Below, piece by piece: positions 1 through 9,236 of a stretch of 64,000 nucleotides of DNA (position 1 is the stretch's first letter; each line of letters starts with the position of its first letter). Location: positions 1 to 64,000 of the forward strand of contig CACMAX010000001.1 of NCBI GenBank assembly GCA_902611845.1, given 5' to 3'. The notes below the pieces were generated by a model, which saw only the letters and a list, made by a program, of their open reading frames with translations, had not been told where the DNA came from and ran no database searches. The stretch is from an uncultured Pelagibacteraceae bacterium (GTDB lineage Bacteria; Pseudomonadota; Alphaproteobacteria; Pelagibacterales; Pelagibacteraceae). Position numbers and translations under genes: made by a program.

Positions 1-981
1 GAAAAATCAAATGAATTTCTTAAGGGAATAAATATTTTGAATAAGTATCATTCTAAAAATAGTAAAAAATACAGAGAAATTATCAATAAATTAAAACCTC
101 AAAATAACAAAATTGAAAATTTAGCTTTTTTACCAGTTACAATTTTTAAAGAAATAGAATTACATTCAATTAAAAAAAAAGAAATTGATACAATTGCTGT
201 TTCTTCCGGCACTACTGGTAATAATCTATCGAAAATTTATCTAAATAAAGAAAATTCAATTAATCAATATAGAGTTCTAAACAAAATTTTAAGTGAATTT
301 TTAGGAAATAAAAAATTTGATTTTTTCTTTCTTTCGGAGCCTCCCATAAAAGACAATAACGAAATCAATGCAAAGTCTGCAGGAATTTTTGGCTTTTCAT
401 CAATCGCAAAATCAAAAACTTATGGTATAAAAAATAATTCAATCCAAAAAGAAAAATTAGATACATTTTTAAAGATCAAAGAAAAAAAAATTCTTTTTGG
501 TTTTACATCTGATATATGGAAATTTTTAATCGAAAGTGATTTTAAATATAAGTTTAATAATACAATCTTAATTCATGGCGGTGGTTGGAAAAAATTAGAA
601 AATAAGAAAATTTCAAGTGTAAAGTTTGATAAAATTTTAAAAAATAAATTTAAATTCTCAAAAATAATAAATTATTATGGTATGATTGAGCAGACAGGAT
701 CGATATTTTTAGAGTGTCACAAGTGTAAAAATTTTATAACTTCTATATACTCTGATATAATTATAAGAGATGAAAATTTTAATTCTATTTTTAATAAACC
801 TGGTCTTATACAACTAATCTCACTTTTGCCAATTAGTTACCCTGGTCACAACATATTGACGCAAGATATTGGAATTATAAACAATAAAACTTGCAACGAT
901 TGTTCAAGTAAAAAGGGAAAAAGATTTAAGGTGCTTGGAAGAGTGATTAATTCAGATGTAAGAGGATGTAGTAATATCTAA
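1..981 (+). CDS. LuxE-like acyl-protein synthetase (5' truncated by window edge)
   Basis: Frame open to base 1; motifs FLPVTIFKE, SSGTTGN and YGMIEQTGSIFLEC typical of the LuxE family. Confidence 0.8.
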   Translation, partial: EKSNEFLKGINILNKYHSKNSKKYREIINKLKPQNNKIENLAFLPVTIFKEIELHSIKKKEIDTIAVSSGTTGNNLSKIYLNKENSINQYRVLNKILSEFLGNKKFDFFFLSEPPIKDNNEINAKSAGIFGFSSIAKSKTYGIKNNSIQKEKLDTFLKIKEKKILFGFTSDIWKFLIESDFKYKFNNTILIHGGGWKKLENKKISSVKFDKILKNKFKFSKIINYYGMIEQTGSIFLECHKCKNFITSIYSDIIIRDENFNSIFNKPGLIQLISLLPISYPGHNILTQDIGIINNKTCNDCSSKKGKRFKVLGRVINSDVRGCSNI

Positions 982-2156
982 TGATATTAAATAATATAAA
1001 AGAACTTAAAATTTTTTTTAAATCTAAAAAAATTACATGTAGACCTTTTTCCGATGAAGTTATAAATTTTTTAGATCATTTCTCAAAAAATTTATTAAGT
1101 AATAAATCATTAAAACAATATCCAGAAATTATAACATTTGCTTTTTGGATTAGAAAATCAAACTTTTTAAACCAAATTAAAAAATATGATATAATTTTTA
1201 AAGATAGAATGGGACGAGGTTTAGCTTTTCATATACCGCCCTCAAATGTATCAACTGGCTATTTTTATTCATGGATTTTCGGGTTGATTTCAGGGAATTC
1301 AAATTTGATTAAACTACCATCTAAAAAAAATATAATTTCAGAAGTTTTATTAAATGAACTTTTTAAATTAAATAAAAATAAAAAATTTACTAAAATTTTT
1401 AAAACAAACAAGTTTATTAGTTATCCCAATGACAAAACAGAAATCACGAAATTAATTTCTGCAAATTGTGACATCAGACTAATTTGGGGTGGAGACAATA
1501 CGATAAATTTTATAAGGAAATTTGAAATCCCAGTTCATTCTCAAGATTTTTGTTTTTATGATAGATATTCATTTGCCATTATACAACTGAATAAAAATAC
1601 TAACATCAAAGATTTAGCTAATAAATTTTTTAATGACACTTTAATAATGGATCAAAATGCATGTTCAAGTCCACATTTAGTTATTTGGAAAGATACAAAT
1701 AGCTATAAAATCAATAAGTTTTGGCGTGAATTCGCAAAAATAATTAAAGAAAAATATTCACTTGATACCGGCAATAAATATTTAAAATATTCTAATGTTA
1801 TATCAAATTTAAATAAAATAAAATTTTTTAAAAATTTAGTAAATCATGAAGAATTATTTTCTAGAATTCAAGTTTCAAACGTTCAATCAAATATCTCAGA
1901 TATTAGAGGTAAATTTGGAATGTTTATAGAGTTCGAAACAAGTAATTTAAACATTTTAAAAAAAATTGTTCAAAAAAAATACCAAACATTAACCTATTAT
2001 GGTGTCGAAAAAAAAACAATTAAAGAATTCGTTTTAAAAAATAATTTAAATGGAATTGATAGAATTGTTAGAATAGGAAACGCTTTGAATATGTCTTTAA
2101 TTTGGGACGGATATGACATAACAAGGTCTTTATCAAGAATTATAGACTATGATTAA
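981..2156 (+). CDS. LuxC-like acyl-CoA/acyl-protein reductase
   Basis: 391 aa; DQNACSSPHLVIW matches the LuxC catalytic Cys region; overlaps the LuxE-like stop. Confidence 0.85.
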   Translation: MILNNIKELKIFFKSKKITCRPFSDEVINFLDHFSKNLLSNKSLKQYPEIITFAFWIRKSNFLNQIKKYDIIFKDRMGRGLAFHIPPSNVSTGYFYSWIFGLISGNSNLIKLPSKKNIISEVLLNELFKLNKNKKFTKIFKTNKFISYPNDKTEITKLISANCDIRLIWGGDNTINFIRKFEIPVHSQDFCFYDRYSFAIIQLNKNTNIKDLANKFFNDTLIMDQNACSSPHLVIWKDTNSYKINKFWREFAKIIKEKYSLDTGNKYLKYSNVISNLNKIKFFKNLVNHEELFSRIQVSNVQSNISDIRGKFGMFIEFETSNLNILKKIVQKKYQTLTYYGVEKKTIKEFVLKNNLNGIDRIVRIGNALNMSLIWDGYDITRSLSRIIDYD

Positions 2157-2604
2157 AACTTTAAGTAAGAAAGAAATTTTGAATATACAGAAAAATAGAG
2201 AACCGTTTTTAATGATGGATGAGGTTAAATTAATATCTGATAAAGAAATTATAGGAAAAAAAAACTTCGATGATAGTTTTTGGGTGTTCGAATGTCATTG
2301 GCCTGGAGATCCAAATGTTCCTGCTGTATTTCAAACTGAAGCTTTAACACAAATTTCATCAATGATTGTATTATCAAATCAAAAATATCACAATAATACT
2401 TTTTTAGTCGTTATGTCTAATAATTTAAAGTTTAAAAGAAAAATAACACCAAATGAGACATTAATTGTAAAGTCTAAACTATTGTATTTTAATAGAGGTG
2501 TAGCAAAATTTAAAGCTGAAGGAAGAGTAGATGACGAATTTTGTTGTTCTGGTGAGTTTACAATGGTTTTACAAGAGGAAATATCTAAATTTAATAAGGA
2601 TTGA
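2149..2604 (+). CDS. FabZ/FabA-like 3-hydroxyacyl-ACP dehydratase (hotdog fold)
   Basis: 151 aa; PFLMMDEV, HWPGDPNVPAVFQTEALTQ with His and Glu retained. Confidence 0.85.
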   Translation: MIKTLSKKEILNIQKNREPFLMMDEVKLISDKEIIGKKNFDDSFWVFECHWPGDPNVPAVFQTEALTQISSMIVLSNQKYHNNTFLVVMSNNLKFKRKITPNETLIVKSKLLYFNRGVAKFKAEGRVDDEFCCSGEFTMVLQEEISKFNKD

Positions 2605-2634
2605 ATTATATTATATTTTGTGTAAAAAATTGCC

Positions 2635-3696
2635 ATGCCAATTCATTCATCTTTATTAAAAAAACCTAGATTAGTAAAAAAACTAAAAGATTTTTATGAA
2701 TACGTAAAATACAATGACGGCAAAGTTGGAACAAAAACAAGAGGCATAGATTTAAATTTTAACAATGCTTGTAATTTAAGATGCAAGTATTGTTTTACAA
2801 ATTCACCTAAAGGAGATCATGTCAAAGAATACCTAGATTATGATGCTATAGCAAGATTAGCAGACGAAGCTGATGAACTAGGTTATTTTGAATTTGATTT
2901 ACAAGGAGGTGAGCTTTTACTTCAACCTAAAAAATTATTTAAAGTTTTAGAAGCAATAAAACCTGAAAGATTTTATTTGTACTTAACAACAAATGGATAC
3001 TACCTTGATGAAAAGATGGCAAATAGGCTTGCTGAAGCTCAAGTAAGCAGAGTATCAGTGAGTATAGATAGTATGGATGAGAAAATTCATGATGAAATAA
3101 GAGGAAGAAAAGATTCCTGGAGGAGAGCTATGGAAGGTTTAAAACACGTTCAAAAAGCAGGAATAGATCCATACTTAAATATTACAGTTGGTCATTATAA
3201 TGCACATACAGATCATTTGAAACAATTATTAGATTATTCAAAAGACCAAAAATACAAAACACTACTAAACGTAGCAGTACCAGCTGGAATGTGGCAAAAA
3301 GCTGAAGACATAATATGTGATGACAAAGATAGACAATATTTAAGAAAAATTAGAAAAGAATATAAAAATTTAGTTAGGAATATATGGAATCCATTTGATA
3401 GATCTTATGAAGGAATTCTTGGGTGTACAACTGTCAATCGTTTATACATAACACCAATCGGCGATGTTTTAGTTTGTCCATATGTTCATATAAAAATTGG
3501 AAATATTTTTAAACAGTCTCTAAAAGAAATTGTAGACTATGGGTTTAAAATCAAACATTTTAGAAATCACAGTGATTTATGTTTAGCAGGAGAAGATAAA
3601 AGTTTTATTAGAAAATATATGACTAAAAGCGGTCAATCAATTTTTAAACCAGCTGAAGCAAAAGATATATTTTCAAAAGAAGATTTAATTAATTAA
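2635..3696 (+). CDS. Radical SAM protein with SPASM-like C-terminus
   Basis: 353 aa; CNLRCKYC (CxxxCxxC) motif, DLQGGELLL, C-terminal GDVLVCPYVHIKIGNI. Confidence 0.85.
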   Translation: MPIHSSLLKKPRLVKKLKDFYEYVKYNDGKVGTKTRGIDLNFNNACNLRCKYCFTNSPKGDHVKEYLDYDAIARLADEADELGYFEFDLQGGELLLQPKKLFKVLEAIKPERFYLYLTTNGYYLDEKMANRLAEAQVSRVSVSIDSMDEKIHDEIRGRKDSWRRAMEGLKHVQKAGIDPYLNITVGHYNAHTDHLKQLLDYSKDQKYKTLLNVAVPAGMWQKAEDIICDDKDRQYLRKIRKEYKNLVRNIWNPFDRSYEGILGCTTVNRLYITPIGDVLVCPYVHIKIGNIFKQSLKEIVDYGFKIKHFRNHSDLCLAGEDKSFIRKYMTKSGQSIFKPAEAKDIFSKEDLIN

Positions 3697-3701
3697 ATAA
3701 A

Positions 3702-4460
3702 TTGAAAGACCTTCAAAATAAAACAGTTCTATTAACAGGTTGTAATAGAGGAATAGGGTACACTATCCTTGAAAAACTTGCTGAGCATAAATGTAATATA
3801 ATTGCTTGTACCAGAAATGAAAATGAAAAGTTTACAAAAAAAATTGATAAACTTAGATCAAAATTTAGTTCAAAAATTAAAAATTATTATTTTGATTTAG
3901 AAAGTTTTGAATCCATTAAAAATTCAGTCAAAAAGATTTTAGTAGAAAATGAGAAAATCGATATTTTAATAAATACTGCTGGTATTTTGCATAACTCATT
4001 GTTTCTTATGTCAACAACTTCTGAAATTCAAAAAATTCTAAATGTTAATTTTACTTCACAGATATTGCTTACTCAATTAATTGCAAAAAAAATGGTTTTA
4101 AAAAAATCTGGAAATATAATTTTTTTTTCATCGTCATCTGCAAAAGAAAATAATTTTGGTAGAAGTATTTACTCGGCTTCAAAGTCTGCAATAGAATCAA
4201 TGTCAAAATCATTATCTAAAGAACTTGGACGGTATAATATTAGAGTAAATACGATTGCTCCAGGTCCAGTAGAAACAGAAATGTTTAGTAAATTTACAGA
4301 CGAAGAAAATACAAAAAAAATTATTAATAGAACTGCATCTAAAAAAATTGCAAAAACAGATGATATTGCAAATTTAGTAATTTTCTTATCATCAAATTTA
4401 TCAAGTCATATAAATGGTCAAATAATAAATATAGATGGTGGATTAGGTATAAATGAATGA
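3702..4460 (+). CDS. SDR family oxidoreductase (FabG-like)
   Basis: 252 aa, TTG start; TGCNRGIG, NTAGI, YSASKSA, INIDGG. Confidence 0.9.
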   Translation: MKDLQNKTVLLTGCNRGIGYTILEKLAEHKCNIIACTRNENEKFTKKIDKLRSKFSSKIKNYYFDLESFESIKNSVKKILVENEKIDILINTAGILHNSLFLMSTTSEIQKILNVNFTSQILLTQLIAKKMVLKKSGNIIFFSSSSAKENNFGRSIYSASKSAIESMSKSLSKELGRYNIRVNTIAPGPVETEMFSKFTDEENTKKIINRTASKKIAKTDDIANLVIFLSSNLSSHINGQIINIDGGLGINE

Positions 4461-5298
4461 TAATAAAGACTATCTAGTAGAGATAAAAAAAAATTCAAAA
4501 GAATTTAGAAAAAAAATTCTTTTGATGTCATATGAGGCAGGTCATTCTAGTGCTCATATTGGTGGTGCTTTTTCTTCAGTGGAAATACTCTCAACATTAT
4601 TTACTAAATTTTTTAATTATAATAAAAATAATCCAGCGGATCCTTCAAGAGATAGATTCATATTAAGTAAAGGGCATGGGTGTTTAGTTTATTATTCCAT
4701 GTTAAGCAGCATGGGTTATATAACCAAAGAAGAGCTAAAGACCTTTGAAAAAAATGGATCTAATCTTTTAGGCCATCCAGTAAAGAACCAGGAATTAGGT
4801 ATTGAATTTTCTAATGGTAGTCTTGGAATGGGTTTATCAATAGGAATAGGTTTATCTATAGGTTATAAAAGAAAAGTTAAAAAAAATAAAGTATATGTTT
4901 TAATGGGGGATGGAGAATGTAACGAGGGCTCGGTTTGGGAGTCGATTATGTGTGCTCCTAACTTTGATCTTGATAATTTAATTACATTTATCGATAATAA
5001 TAATTTTCAACAAACTGGTAGTAATGATGAAATCTTAAAAAATAAAAATTTGAAATCTAAATTCGAAAATTTTGGCTGGGAAGTGTTCGAAGTTGATGGA
5101 CACAATGAGGAACAATTATTAACCACAATAAATAAATTAAATTTAAATAATAAAAAACCCAAAGCAATTATTTGCAAGACAATCAAAGGCAAAGGTATTT
5201 CCTTCACAGAAAATGATAATAAATGGCATCACTCTGTCTTAACAAAATCTAATTATGAAGAAGCAATAAAGGAATTAGAAAATAATGAAATTGGATAA
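4453..5298 (+). CDS. Transketolase, N-terminal (TPP-binding) subunit
   Basis: 281 aa; GHGCLVYY, GDGECNEGSVWE...DNNNFQQTG TPP motif. Confidence 0.9.
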   Translation: MNDNKDYLVEIKKNSKEFRKKILLMSYEAGHSSAHIGGAFSSVEILSTLFTKFFNYNKNNPADPSRDRFILSKGHGCLVYYSMLSSMGYITKEELKTFEKNGSNLLGHPVKNQELGIEFSNGSLGMGLSIGIGLSIGYKRKVKKNKVYVLMGDGECNEGSVWESIMCAPNFDLDNLITFIDNNNFQQTGSNDEILKNKNLKSKFENFGWEVFEVDGHNEEQLLTTINKLNLNNKKPKAIICKTIKGKGISFTENDNKWHHSVLTKSNYEEAIKELENNEIG

Positions 5299-6250
5299 AT
5301 CTAAAATTAAAATTTTTTCGCAAATAGGCATGAGAGCATCTTTTGGAATGGTATGTCTTGAATTAGTAAAAAATAATAATAATCTGATGGTTTGCACTGC
5401 AGATGTGTCTACTTCAGCTGGTCTAGACAGATATAGAAAAAAATATTTAGATAATTATGTAGATGTAGGTATAGCAGAACAAAATTTAATCGGTGTTGCT
5501 ACAGGATTATCAGATTTAGGTTATGATGTTATAACAACAACATTTTCTCCATTTCAAACACTAAGATGTTGTGAGCAAATTAAAGTTAATCTTGGTTATA
5601 TGAAAAATAAGATAATTATGGTTGGTTTAGCAAGTGGTTTGGTTTTAGGTGAATTAGGTTTTACACATGCATCTATAGAAGACATTGGGGCAATCAGGTC
5701 GATCCCAAATTTAAAAATTATTTCTCCATCAGATAGTGGTGAATTATTTAAATGCTTAGGAAGTTCTTTAAATGAAAAAGGCTCGGTTTATATTAGGCTT
5801 ACAGGTGGTGCAAATAATAAAATAATAAATCATGATGACTATAATTTTGAAATTGGAAAGAGTATTGAGCTGAGATCTGGAAAAGACGTTTGTATTATCA
5901 GTAATGGTCAAATAATTAGTGAGTGCCTTGAGGCATCAACACTTTTAGAAGATGATAATATAGGCTGTTCTGTGATAAATATGCATACAATCAAACCTAT
6001 TGATAAAACAAAAATTAGAGAAATAGCTTTAAATTTTAAATTAATAGTTACTGTTGAAGAGCATAATATTATTGGAGGATTGGGATCAGCAGTTGCAGAG
6101 GAAATTTCACAAATTGGGGCAAATACAAGACAGATATTTCTTGGCATAAACGACTCTTATGCCAAAGGAGGAAATTATGTTTACATGAAAGAAATTTTTA
6201 ATATAAGTTCAAAAAAAATATATCAAAGAATAAAAAATGAAGTCAAATAA
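5285..6250 (+). CDS. Transketolase, C-terminal (pyrimidine-binding) subunit
   Basis: 321 aa; VDVGIAEQNLIGVATGLSDLGYDV; overlaps preceding subunit gene. Confidence 0.9.
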   Translation: MKLDKSKIKIFSQIGMRASFGMVCLELVKNNNNLMVCTADVSTSAGLDRYRKKYLDNYVDVGIAEQNLIGVATGLSDLGYDVITTTFSPFQTLRCCEQIKVNLGYMKNKIIMVGLASGLVLGELGFTHASIEDIGAIRSIPNLKIISPSDSGELFKCLGSSLNEKGSVYIRLTGGANNKIINHDDYNFEIGKSIELRSGKDVCIISNGQIISECLEASTLLEDDNIGCSVINMHTIKPIDKTKIREIALNFKLIVTVEEHNIIGGLGSAVAEEISQIGANTRQIFLGINDSYAKGGNYVYMKEIFNISSKKIYQRIKNEVK

Positions 6251-6482
6251 TGCCGAAATTTACAAAGAAACTTTTATTTCATCTTTATCTATTGATCAAA
6301 AAAATTTTTCTGAAGATTTGAAATATAATGAAATTGAAGAATGGGACTCCATTGGACATATGACTCTTATAGCTGCTTTAGAGGAAAAATTTAGTATTTC
6401 TATTGATACAGATGATATTGTCGATTTCAGCTCCTTTAAAAAAGGTAAAGAAATTTTAAAAAAATATAAAATTCCTTTTTGA
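6237..6482 (+). CDS. Acyl carrier protein-like
   Basis: 81 aa; EWDSIGHMTLIAALEEKFSISI with phosphopantetheine Ser in DSIGH. Confidence 0.85.
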   Translation: MKSNNAEIYKETFISSLSIDQKNFSEDLKYNEIEEWDSIGHMTLIAALEEKFSISIDTDDIVDFSSFKKGKEILKKYKIPF

Positions 6483-7472
6483 TTTTTTTAATTTAATAAG
6501 CAATATAAAATAAACACATAAAGTTATCAAAATTAAATACAGATCAAGTATAATTCCAATTGTAGATATTAAATAAGGAGCAATACATACTGAAATATAA
6601 GGTATATAGACGTATTTTTTATTAATTATTTTATTAAATAAATGATGCAAATGAGTAGTATCTGGATTGAATGGATGCTTTTTATTTAAATATCTTTCAA
6701 TAAATACTCTAAGCATGTCTATGCCTGGTATAATGAATAACAAAAATATTTTTTCTGCTGTTAAATTCATTTCTATTAAAGGTAGCTCAATTTTAAAATT
6801 ATAAAAATAAAGTGTCATTACAGCAAAAAAAGACGACCCGATATTGGTCCCTGAATTTCCTGAAAAAAAAATACTAAAAGTATTACAGATCAACAATACA
6901 AACATTAATATTAAGTAAAAATTGAATATAAAATTGTTATTAAAAAAAAACATTAAATATAAAAAAATCATATATGATAAAAATATTCCATTTTCTCCAT
7001 CGATTAGATTGAAACTATTAATTAGTAGCAATATACAAAATGTTGTAAAAAATATCGAGGTTCCAAACAAGTAAATTTCTTTATCAAAGTATTCAATATA
7101 GATTTTTTTTACTACTAAACTGTCGTTAATAAGTAAAAATATTAAGGTTGATATGACAAATATAATAAGTTTATTGTTGGGTTTTATTCCCTTACTATCA
7201 TCTAATAAACCACAAAAGGACATTACTAGAAAATATAGTACCGAAGAGAAAATAAAATAATTATTAAGTGATTGATATTGAGAAAAAATTAAAAAAAAAA
7301 AAATTAATATAATTGATAAAAGTAGCCCTGCAATCGTTGAAGTTTTTTGTTTGTGTAGTTTACGTTTTTTATCAGGTTTATCTATAATTCCTAATTTTTC
7401 TGTGATTTGTTTTTTATAAATAAAAATAATTGAAAATGTTATTAAGGTTAATATTAAGTAACTATTAATCAT
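6456..7472 (-). CDS. Polyprenyl-phosphate sugar-1-phosphate transferase (WecA/MraY family)
   Basis: 338 aa polytopic; GLLDDSKGI, NSFNLIDGENG, ERYLNKKHPFNPDTTHLHHL. Confidence 0.85.
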   Translation of the reverse strand: MINSYLILTLITFSIIFIYKKQITEKLGIIDKPDKKRKLHKQKTSTIAGLLLSIILIFFFLIFSQYQSLNNYFIFSSVLYFLVMSFCGLLDDSKGIKPNNKLIIFVISTLIFLLINDSLVVKKIYIEYFDKEIYLFGTSIFFTTFCILLLINSFNLIDGENGIFLSYMIFLYLMFFFNNNFIFNFYLILMFVLLICNTFSIFFSGNSGTNIGSSFFAVMTLYFYNFKIELPLIEMNLTAEKIFLLFIIPGIDMLRVFIERYLNKKHPFNPDTTHLHHLFNKIINKKYVYIPYISVCIAPYLISTIGIILDLYLILITLCVYFILLIKLKKSKRNFIFF

Positions 7473-7485
7473 TTTAAAAATTCAT

Positions 7486-8388
7486 TTATTCAAAATTTGA
7501 ATATAATGTTTGTATATTTAAAATTTCTCTTTTTTCACTTGTAATAATTTTAGTTCTTCCATGCATAAACCTTTGGTTATCAATCATACATATATCATTT
7601 TTTTTCCACTTGAATTCAATTGTTAGTTTTTTTGTTATCTTATTAATTTCATCATAAATTTTTTTTGGTATTCTATTTCCATTTAATAATTTGCAACTTA
7701 AAATCTGTGGATCTGTCCCAAATACCGCAAGTAAATGATTGCAAAAACTCAAAACTCCTGGTTTTCTTGTTTCGTTAACAACATATTTTAAGTATTTTGT
7801 ATAAATGTAGCCCTCTTTTAAATTTATAGATGTATCAAAAGTTCCTGGAGCATGTAACAGCCAGTCTTTCATTTTACTTAATGAATTATTTTTACTCAAT
7901 TTTTTTTTTAATCCATTGCTTTCAAATGGTATCTTTAACTCAAACATTACTTGATTTTTAAGAAAAAATTTTTTTGTATTTAAGCTTAAATTTTCATAAA
8001 CTTTTGTCCCATCGCAAAAAGTTGTGAAACCACTTATTTTTGAGGGCTTTATACAAACAAACCAAAGTATTTCGGGCCAAGATGGTGAAAAACTTGCTTC
8101 AGAATGCAAAGCCATTCTTTTATTTCCAGTGTCTACAGTATTTATTTTTTTATTATTAAATCTCATCTCTCGTCTTCTTGCATCATTGGCATATCTATGG
8201 GTAAAGAGGTCAGTCAATGCAGTAATTTTTTTTGGATCAAACTTGTAATTTCTAAAAATTATAATCCCATATTCCTTAAATAGTTTGATAATTTTATTTT
8301 TATTAATTTTTTTTAAATCTTTATGATCTTGATTTTGCAATATTATTCCACCGCCGTTAAATAATTTGGATATATTGCTTATTTTCAT
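7486..8388 (-). CDS. TauD/TfdA-like 2-oxoglutarate/Fe(II) dioxygenase
   Basis: 300 aa; ALHSEASFSPSWPEILWF, DNQRFMHGRT, EKREILNIQTLY. Confidence 0.8.
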   Translation of the reverse strand: MKISNISKLFNGGGIILQNQDHKDLKKINKNKIIKLFKEYGIIIFRNYKFDPKKITALTDLFTHRYANDARRREMRFNNKKINTVDTGNKRMALHSEASFSPSWPEILWFVCIKPSKISGFTTFCDGTKVYENLSLNTKKFFLKNQVMFELKIPFESNGLKKKLSKNNSLSKMKDWLLHAPGTFDTSINLKEGYIYTKYLKYVVNETRKPGVLSFCNHLLAVFGTDPQILSCKLLNGNRIPKKIYDEINKITKKLTIEFKWKKNDICMIDNQRFMHGRTKIITSEKREILNIQTLYSNFE

Positions 8389-8390
8389 TA

Positions 8391-9236
8391 TTATATTTCT
8401 CTACTTGGGTTCCCAAATACCTTCGTATTTCTTTTTACATTTTTAATAACAACTGAACCAATTCCTATATGACTATTTTTTCCAATAATTATATTATTAA
8501 TTAAATTTGCACATGGTGATATTAAAACATTATCCTCTACCTTTACACTACCACCAATATTTGATCCACCCGTTATAGTTACATTATTACCTATTTGGCT
8601 ATTATGTGCAATTTGAACAAGTGTATCAATCATTGTGTTATTTCCTATTTTTGTAAAACCGAAAGTGCCTTTGCTTATAACGCTATTAGAGCCAATTATA
8701 GAATTATCACCTATATGAACACCACCTGAAATAGGCATATGATAAATTTTTTTGCCTTTTCTCTCAAAAGAAAAACTTAGAGCCCCAATCACTGCCCCTG
8801 ACCTAATAATACAATTCTTTCCAATAATAGTGTTCTCTTTAATAATAACCCCTTCTTCTATAATTGAATTTTCACCTATTTGAATATTATTTTCTAAAAT
8901 ACTTTTTGAAGATATTTTGCTTAACTTAGAAATTTTGTTTTGAATTTTATTTTTAATTACAAATTTTTTTTTTAACAATAGATTATATATTTTCGAAAAT
9001 TCTAGTCTCGGACTTTTAGAAAATATTAAATTTTTTTTACTTCGTCTTAAATCAGTTAATATAACAGCGTTATTTGGTAATTTCTCACCTAAGTACTTTT
9101 TTTTATTAATAAATACAAGTGAGTTTGCCATTATATTATCTTTGGCACAAATTTTATTTATATACATTTTACAATTCTTATACTTTTTATCTAATTTAGA
9201 GAGATATATTTTTTGTTTAAGTCTAATATAATTCAT
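8391..9236 (-). CDS. LpxD-like hexapeptide-repeat N-acyltransferase
   Basis: 281 aa; many I-G-x4 hexapeptides, QIAHNSQIGNN, GNPSREI. Confidence 0.75.
   Translation of the reverse strand: MNYIRLKQKIYLSKLDKKYKNCKMYINKICAKDNIMANSLVFINKKKYLGEKLPNNAVILTDLRRSKKNLIFSKSPRLEFSKIYNLLLKKKFVIKNKIQNKISKLSKISSKSILENNIQIGENSIIEEGVIIKENTIIGKNCIIRSGAVIGALSFSFERKGKKIYHMPISGGVHIGDNSIIGSNSVISKGTFGFTKIGNNTMIDTLVQIAHNSQIGNNVTITGGSNIGGSVKVEDNVLISPCANLINNIIIGKNSHIGIGSVVIKNVKRNTKVFGNPSREI

Follow-up and report, generated by a model that had tools for sequence, protein, structure and literature searches.

Introduction

Glycosylation islands of Aeromonas group II and of Enterobacteriaceae resemble the locus described here in carrying, within a glycan locus, genes for an acyl carrier protein (ACP), a 3-oxoacyl-ACP reductase of the short-chain dehydrogenase/reductase (SDR) family, an AMP-dependent synthetase, LuxE, and LuxC (PMC7874193 and PMC4875605). 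The occurrence of LuxE and LuxC in such islands has so far been explained only by a possible fatty-acid component. Enzymes dependent on thiamine diphosphate (ThDP) are known from separate systems: Shewanella depends on the operon sfmABCDE for an unusual glycan on its flagellin (274 Da, with a further moiety of 236 Da) (PMC3765264), and the split transketolase of Carboxydothermus takes several nonphosphorylated aldehydes in vitro (PMC7661550). Here, we analyze a 64,000-nucleotide stretch (the window) from an uncultured SAR11 bacterium of the Pelagibacteraceae (assembly GCA_902611845.1, contig CACMAX010000001.1), which opens with a cassette that combines LuxE, LuxC, and ACP genes with a split transketolase and a radical SAM enzyme. 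This gene set is a real module and one conserved functional unit. We tentatively read it as the core of a pathway for an unusual surface-glycan building block, in which an ACP-derived aldehyde would be extended by two carbons by the transketolase.

Genes and motifs of the cassette

Positions 1 to 6482 of the window consist of eight open reading frames (ORFs) on the plus strand:

1 to 981, plus strand, LuxE-type acyl-protein synthetase, 5′-truncated by the contig start (Pfam LuxE, 3.6e-34)
981 to 2156, plus strand, LuxC-type acyl reductase with the conserved catalytic Cys228 in NACSSP (Pfam LuxC, 2.3e-29)
2149 to 2604, plus strand, FabZ-like hot-dog dehydratase with conserved His50 and Glu64 (Pfam FabA-like domain, 1.9e-15)
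2635 to 3696, plus strand, radical SAM enzyme with CxxxCxxC and C-terminal Cys 264/281/316 (Pfam Radical_SAM, 1.1e-29, and SPASM)
3702 to 4460, plus strand, FabG-like SDR (Pfam SDR; YxxxK motif)
4453 to 5298, plus strand, transketolase N-terminal half (TKN) with the ThDP-binding PP domain (Pfam Transketolase_N, 4.7e-46)
5285 to 6250, plus strand, transketolase C-terminal half (TKC) with Pyr and TKC domains, of a LuxC-linked clade (Pfam Transket_pyr, 1.3e-26, and Transketolase_C)
6237 to 6482, plus strand, dedicated ACP with a DSI phosphopantetheine site (Pfam PP-binding, 2.5e-4)

Five of the seven junctions are overlaps of 1 to 14 bases, and the other two are gaps of 30 and 5 bases. The first-pass annotation, made from the letters of the window, had described eight codirectional, mostly overlapping genes; all of them were recovered, with their families assigned by Pfam and their activity motifs intact, including the transketolase AEQN motif and the catalytic Glu of the Pyr domain. 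The conservation of motif residues was judged on 20 to 23 sequences per family. LuxE belongs to a class of acyl-adenylating enzymes with a C-terminal acyl-accepting Cys; it displays an SSGTTG motif and RGCS at residues 321 to 324, and among 23 relatives, at least 93% share Cys323. TKN carries the GDG...NN motif and conserved His35/75/108/259/260, and W36, D37, and S38 of the ACP are conserved among relatives. Two further FabA/FabZ-family genes lie outside the cassette in the same genome.

Contig C1, one of 26 in a 1.26-Mb assembly, starts at base 1 of the window. For this reason, LuxE (326 amino acids, compared to about 350 to 367 in most intact relatives) lacks its N terminus and the gene preceding it is missing. 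A search for an orthologue of the AMP ligase that precedes LuxE in relatives returned only distant AMP-binding proteins (24 to 27% identity) from the same genome. The separately assembled contigs L072, L078, L083, L084, L089, and L113 also begin inside LuxE.

The LuxE and LuxC families are known as fatty-acid reductase subunits of luminous bacteria, and the cassette shares with luxCDE both families together with the adenylation motif, the C-terminal Cys, and the catalytic Cys. Bioluminescence or another fatty-aldehyde metabolism (wax, alkane) was therefore weighed as an explanation. LuxE matched the solved LuxE structure 7xc6 (chain E) weakly by sequence (2.4e-9) and scored 61.6 bits against the NCBIfam LuxE equivalog, far under the cutoff of 550. 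The absence of luxAB from the window, already pointed out in the first-pass annotation, extends to the whole assembly (91.7% complete), which showed no Bac_luciferase match. Unlike luxCDE, the cassette genes include no LuxD-like gene (a genome-wide LuxD search was not made), and the module contains an ACP and an AMP ligase. Together with the glycan-locus context, which effectively refutes bioluminescence, these results make the explanation very improbable.

Recurrence of a nine-gene module

The genome contigs were scanned with an alignment of the radical SAM protein, yielding 63 close relatives and 5 unrelated radical SAM proteins. At 43 of the 63 loci, all nine genes of the complete order AMP ligase-LuxE-LuxC-FabZ-radical SAM-SDR-TKN-TKC-ACP were present; the remaining 20 are each cut by a contig end on the side where the missing genes are expected. 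The AMP-binding protein (protein cluster C0, 45 loci) was found upstream of LuxE, mostly directly, where contigs reach far enough. The eight genes originally proposed as a set are thus all real, but the full set comprises nine. A lack of conservation elsewhere, which the first-pass annotation had named as refuting, was not observed: the set recurs, mostly in the same order, in 63 loci across several phyla and classes, which is more than chance. Outside SAR11, members were found in SAR324 (L107), the gammaproteobacterium Marinagarivorans (L109), and Kordiimonadales (L114 and L116), and a separate search added G918 (L209). The ACP gene lies apart from TKN and TKC in L109 and L114. Since the gene order differs in several non-SAR11 members, the co-occurrence points to functional linkage rather than to a single DNA segment inherited from a recent common ancestor.

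Within the order, the LuxE profile PF04443 matched 24 of 297 genomes, 23 of them above the cutoff; the cassette is accessory. Most of the loci fetched from these genomes had all eight genes, usually arranged as in the window, the exceptions being cuts by contig ends, a different cassette (L045), or a weak match. Across 42 complete loci, pairwise identities covaried most strongly for TKN-TKC (0.78) and then for LuxE-LuxC (0.68), a pattern to be expected for subunits in contact.

A transketolase clade linked to LuxE and LuxC

The closest solved relatives of the two transketolase halves are the split transketolase 6yak for TKN (3.5e-60) and 6yaj for TKC (5.5e-51). In a phylogenetic tree, the TKC proteins of radical SAM-type clusters and of the sister clusters (type B, described below) formed one group (support, 98/83) against 31 other ThDP rows, which comprised 26 to 27 further split-type hits along with reference ThDP sequences. 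The radical SAM-type proteins alone were grouped with a support of 100/100. A GLDR signature (SAGLDRY in the window) is common to the LuxC-linked TKC proteins and occurs in none of the 31 other rows; it can serve as a sequence signature for this dedicated transketolase clade. When 249 genomes were searched with the TKC half, members of the clade outside the window's own genome were found only in G443 and G474, in both cases beside LuxE/LuxC.

The adjacency of TKN, TKC, and ACP would also suit a different route, in which these three proteins load the ACP with a two-carbon hydroxyacetyl group, bound as a thioester (glycolyl-ACP) and derived from a ketose phosphate, and the other enzymes modify this unit. 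SclQ1-4 (proposed, scleric acid) and QncN/QncL/QncM likewise pair a ThDP-domain protein, a Pyr-plus-TKC protein, and an ACP (PMC6335953). However, the Scl and Qnc systems include a lipoyl/acyltransferase protein, and Pfam found no lipoyl domain in the cassette proteins of the window. TKN itself is transketolase-like (Transketolase_N, 4.7e-46, versus E1_dh, 2.3e-8), the AMP ligase would be superfluous, and the separated ACP of L109 and L114 does not fit either. We consider the glycolyl-ACP route quite improbable.

Four arrangements of LuxE/LuxC clusters

LuxE was searched over 399 genomes of the phylum and 385 of the class, and the neighborhoods were fetched. Four arrangements were distinguished. 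Type A, reported from the Aeromonas group II islands and Enterobacteriaceae (PMC7874193 and PMC4875605), contains ACP, AMP ligase, LuxE, LuxC, and usually an SDR, often with PseI/PseF/PseG or Maf. Type B adds a split transketolase and an LpxA-like acyltransferase to the type A genes (Rhizobium L054, L160, and L163) and, L157 excepted, also FabZ and a GMC oxidoreductase. Type C, to which the window belongs, has the radical SAM enzyme where type B has the GMC oxidoreductase. Type D combines FabZ, an IlvB-type ThDP enzyme, and NeuB and was found in SAR11 (L045) and another alphaproteobacterium (L207). The SAR11 locus (L045:773-8847) reads ACP-FabZ-ThDP enzyme-NeuB-AMP ligase-LuxE-LuxC; in both loci, the IlvB-type enzyme replaces the transketolase beside ACP, FabZ, AMP ligase, LuxE, and LuxC. 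FabZ was present in 4 of 5 non-type-C loci with a ThDP enzyme, plus L207, and was not detected in the tabulated LuxE/LuxC loci without one. The exchange of radical SAM and GMC enzymes between types C and B is a correlation over few loci; both steps may be of an oxidation type.

The Rhizobium anhuiense cluster (L054:3972-16392), which holds the split transketolase, LuxE/LuxC, and the GMC oxidoreductase, lies on a plasmid and adjoins a TonB siderophore receptor. LuxC and transketolase matches were also obtained on plasmids of R. leguminosarum and R. beringeri.

A proposed pathway and its main alternative

From the gene set, its motif conservation and co-occurrence, the specificity of the transketolase clade, and the genomic context, we infer every reaction, the step order, and the product of the following scheme. 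An AMP-binding ligase would charge the dedicated ACP with a carboxylic acid, and FabZ and/or the FabG-like SDR would adjust the ACP-bound chain. LuxE would accept the acyl group at its C-terminal Cys and hand it to LuxC, which would reduce it to an aldehyde. The split transketolase, from a clade specialized for this reaction, would then add a two-carbon ketol unit to this aldehyde, so that a keto-polyol resembling a (deoxy)ketose is formed, longer by two carbons. An oxidation, dehydration, or epimerization common to all members could be performed by the radical SAM enzyme, which takes the place of the GMC oxidoreductase in sister clusters, and neighboring transferases would attach the product to the glycan.

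Transketolases need an aldehyde acceptor, and the presence of LuxC as a source of aldehyde was therefore counted in favor of ketol transfer. The IlvB-type enzyme in the place of the transketolase in L045 and L207 independently favors an aldehyde-plus-ThDP carboligation. Aldehyde formation followed by ketol transfer, as suggested in the first-pass annotation, is the best-supported chemistry; in naming a product, that annotation went beyond the evidence.

Several points weigh against this scheme. The putative identities of LuxE and LuxC were assigned by family profile and motif. Most surveyed glycosylation islands carry LuxE/LuxC without any ThDP enzyme, so the LuxC aldehyde may serve another end, and the AMP ligase and LuxE both look acyl activating, so the ACP and aldehyde branches could be separate. 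The acceptor site offered an argument in favor of the scheme. At the positions of E. coli transketolase H461 and D469, all 83 cassette TKC proteins in the comparison have Ala/Gly and Leu/Phe, whereas the full-length transketolase of the same genome keeps His and Asp; changes at both sites of the E. coli enzyme raised its propionaldehyde activity (PMC3657141; see also PMC5073344). Both residues are, however, also lost in most split-type hits without LuxC, a control that took most of the weight from this argument. The change is therefore not diagnostic, and we rejected it as proof of a nonphosphorylated aliphatic acceptor.

The main alternative is one of two separate branches that share no carbon chain, in which an acyltransferase puts a hydroxyacyl or enoyl group made by the AMP ligase, ACP, SDR, and FabZ on a sugar, the LuxE/LuxC aldehyde is used elsewhere, and the transketolase independently supplies the same glycan with a sugar precursor. 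Besides the two acyl-activating enzymes and the existence of LuxE/LuxC modules without ThDP enzymes, this explanation draws on the LpxA-like/hexapeptide acyltransferases and AAC(3)-like acetyltransferases beside many clusters and on the suggestion of the island authors that fatty-acid-type or lipid-sugar components are made (PMC7874193 and PMC4875605). It leaves unexplained why the transketolase clade occurs only beside LuxE/LuxC and why a ThDP enzyme that is only distantly related can replace the transketolase in the same gene set. We regard two separate branches as unlikely, though worth serious consideration.

For the ketol-transfer scheme, the two kinds of ThDP enzyme, split transketolase and IlvB type, suggest a concrete reaction that can be tested, namely, aldehyde formation and then ketol or acyl transfer. 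A wider claim, which we hold to be possible but somewhat doubtful, is that a sugar or keto-polyol of the surface glycan is made by a widespread marine route that does not start from nucleotide sugars: the transketolase would transfer a ketol unit to an aldehyde that LuxC forms from a carrier-bound chain, and a new and highly conserved radical SAM enzyme would complete the product. If true, the most abundant bacteria of the ocean would have a new way of making their surface sugars, encoded in hypervariable loci that are thought to be relevant to phage recognition.

The radical SAM enzyme

The radical SAM enzyme is the most conserved gene product of the set, and the earlier proposal had left its step out. 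Its mean identity was 0.78 versus 0.38 to 0.61 for the other cassette proteins, and the homologs from SAR324, Marinagarivorans, and Kordiimonadales are 60 to 69% identical to that of the window. This pattern could mean that strains differ in the acyl part, whereas the part on which the radical SAM enzyme acts stays the same. Cys 46/50/53 and 264/281/316 are invariant, and judging by these motifs, the protein probably carries one auxiliary Fe-S cluster. It falls into no named subfamily (best NCBIfam score, 95 bits; cutoff, 500). An AlphaFold2 model (18 sequences; pLDDT, 74) matched the folds of MoaA, anSME, SkfB, and viperin about equally; since these matches were generic and lacked one clear nearest relative, an assignment of function from the fold was rejected. 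A plasmid search with the protein gave no match.

A second gene of the cassette type (L117:9427-10173; 533 bits) lies about 7 kb from the first on the same contig and reaches the contig end. B12-binding radical SAM proteins adjoin the cassette in L114 (6351-7976) and L107 (3760-5646) and in a few SAR11 loci (cluster C23, 6 loci).

Glycan context and target

The cassette sits among surface-glycan genes in loci long enough to show context. In the window, three genes on the minus strand follow:

6456 to 7472, minus strand, glycosyl transferase family 4 (WecA-like), a neighbor outside the core (Pfam PF00953)
7486 to 8388, minus strand, TauD/TfdA-family dioxygenase, a possible accessory (Pfam PF02668)
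8391 to 9236, minus strand, hexapeptide-repeat acyltransferase, a possible accessory (Pfam Hexapep)

Further downstream lie a GT2 glycosyltransferase, an FkbM methyltransferase, a GDP-mannose dehydratase family member, and other enzymes of nucleoside diphosphate (NDP) sugars, in line with the glycan locus that had been proposed next door. The GC content is 26.0% in the cassette, 23.6% in the following glycan genes, and 29.2% in the rest. The dioxygenase (cluster C12) occurs near the cassette at 9 of 63 loci. In L052, a similar-looking minus-strand ORF follows the ACP and an LpxA-like ORF takes the place of the hexapeptide acyltransferase; LpxA-like genes are also found in the GMC-type clusters. 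In the relative G020 (a single contig, listed as 99% complete), an LpxA-like ORF comes after the cassette, together with dioxygenase-like and GT4-like ORFs that were recognized from their starts only. Two further families recur near the cassette in SAR11 and non-SAR11 loci, a DUF4910/DUF2172 protein (L114:8071-9531; cluster C10, 11 loci) and an AAC(3)-like acetyltransferase (L114:3856-4695; cluster C5, 16 loci).

The Kordiimonadales locus L114 adjoins PseF-, PseG-, and PseI-like genes and a TPR protein, as well as FlbT-, FlaF-, and flagellin-like ORFs (assigned by reading the sequence), and many LuxE/LuxC loci contain PseI and some a Maf protein. This would fit a product that decorates nonulosonic acid on flagellin, as in the Aeromonas island. 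However, none of the 15 LuxE-bearing SAR11 genomes tested, that of the window among them, contained flagellin. A NeuB/PseI-like gene lies near 35 of 63 loci, but NeuB/PseI is no more common with LuxE (19 of 23 genomes) than without a LuxE match (17 of 22) and is absent from both the window's genome and the nearly complete relative G020; the nonulosonate link was therefore rejected. Flagellin glycosylation is refuted as a general rule for SAR11, although it may hold for Kordiimonadales, and as an overall explanation it is improbable. With neither a SAR11 flagellin nor an enrichment of NeuB, a surface polysaccharide is the most likely target in SAR11, with nonulosonic acids as optional company.

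Comparison with known systems

No paper describing this gene set was found in the open-license full-text literature. The term "undescribed" in the first-pass annotation was nevertheless too strong, since the ACP/SDR/AMP ligase/LuxE/LuxC core is that of the Aeromonas and Enterobacteriaceae islands. Four of these five genes are held by the window, and the fifth, the AMP ligase, precedes LuxE in relatives with longer upstream contigs. In the consulted passages of the island reports (PMC7874193 and PMC4875605), no split transketolase or radical SAM enzyme is mentioned, FabZ appears in only one strain, and the islands are linked to pse genes and flagella, both of which the genome of the window lacks. 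The clusters of Rhizobium L054 and of G443/G618, for which we found annotation but no study, share the same-clade split transketolase, FabZ, ACP, AMP ligase, LuxE, and LuxC with the cassette, and L054 and L163 also share the SDR. They differ in having a GMC oxidoreductase for the radical SAM enzyme and an added LpxA-like acyltransferase, and L054 further contains an aminotransferase and a glycosyltransferase.

The other systems are more partial counterparts. In the sfmABCDE operon, a NeuB-like gene is accompanied by genes for a ThDP enzyme and a FabG-like SDR, but its ThDP enzyme is of the IlvB type and its five genes include neither LuxE/LuxC nor an ACP (PMC3765264). The Scl/Qnc glycolyl-ACP systems share a two-protein transketolase-like ThDP enzyme and a dedicated ACP; they differ in their lipoyl/acyltransferase protein and their nonribosomal peptide assembly, with no LuxE/LuxC described (PMC6335953). 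The Carboxydothermus split transketolase (6yaj/6yak) has the same two-chain architecture and is the closest solved relative (PMC7661550), but it lacks the GLDR signature and retains His and Asp at the H461/D469 sites. Against this background, the split transketolase clade found only with LuxE/LuxC, the very conserved radical SAM enzyme, and the two loci with an IlvB-type swap are new.

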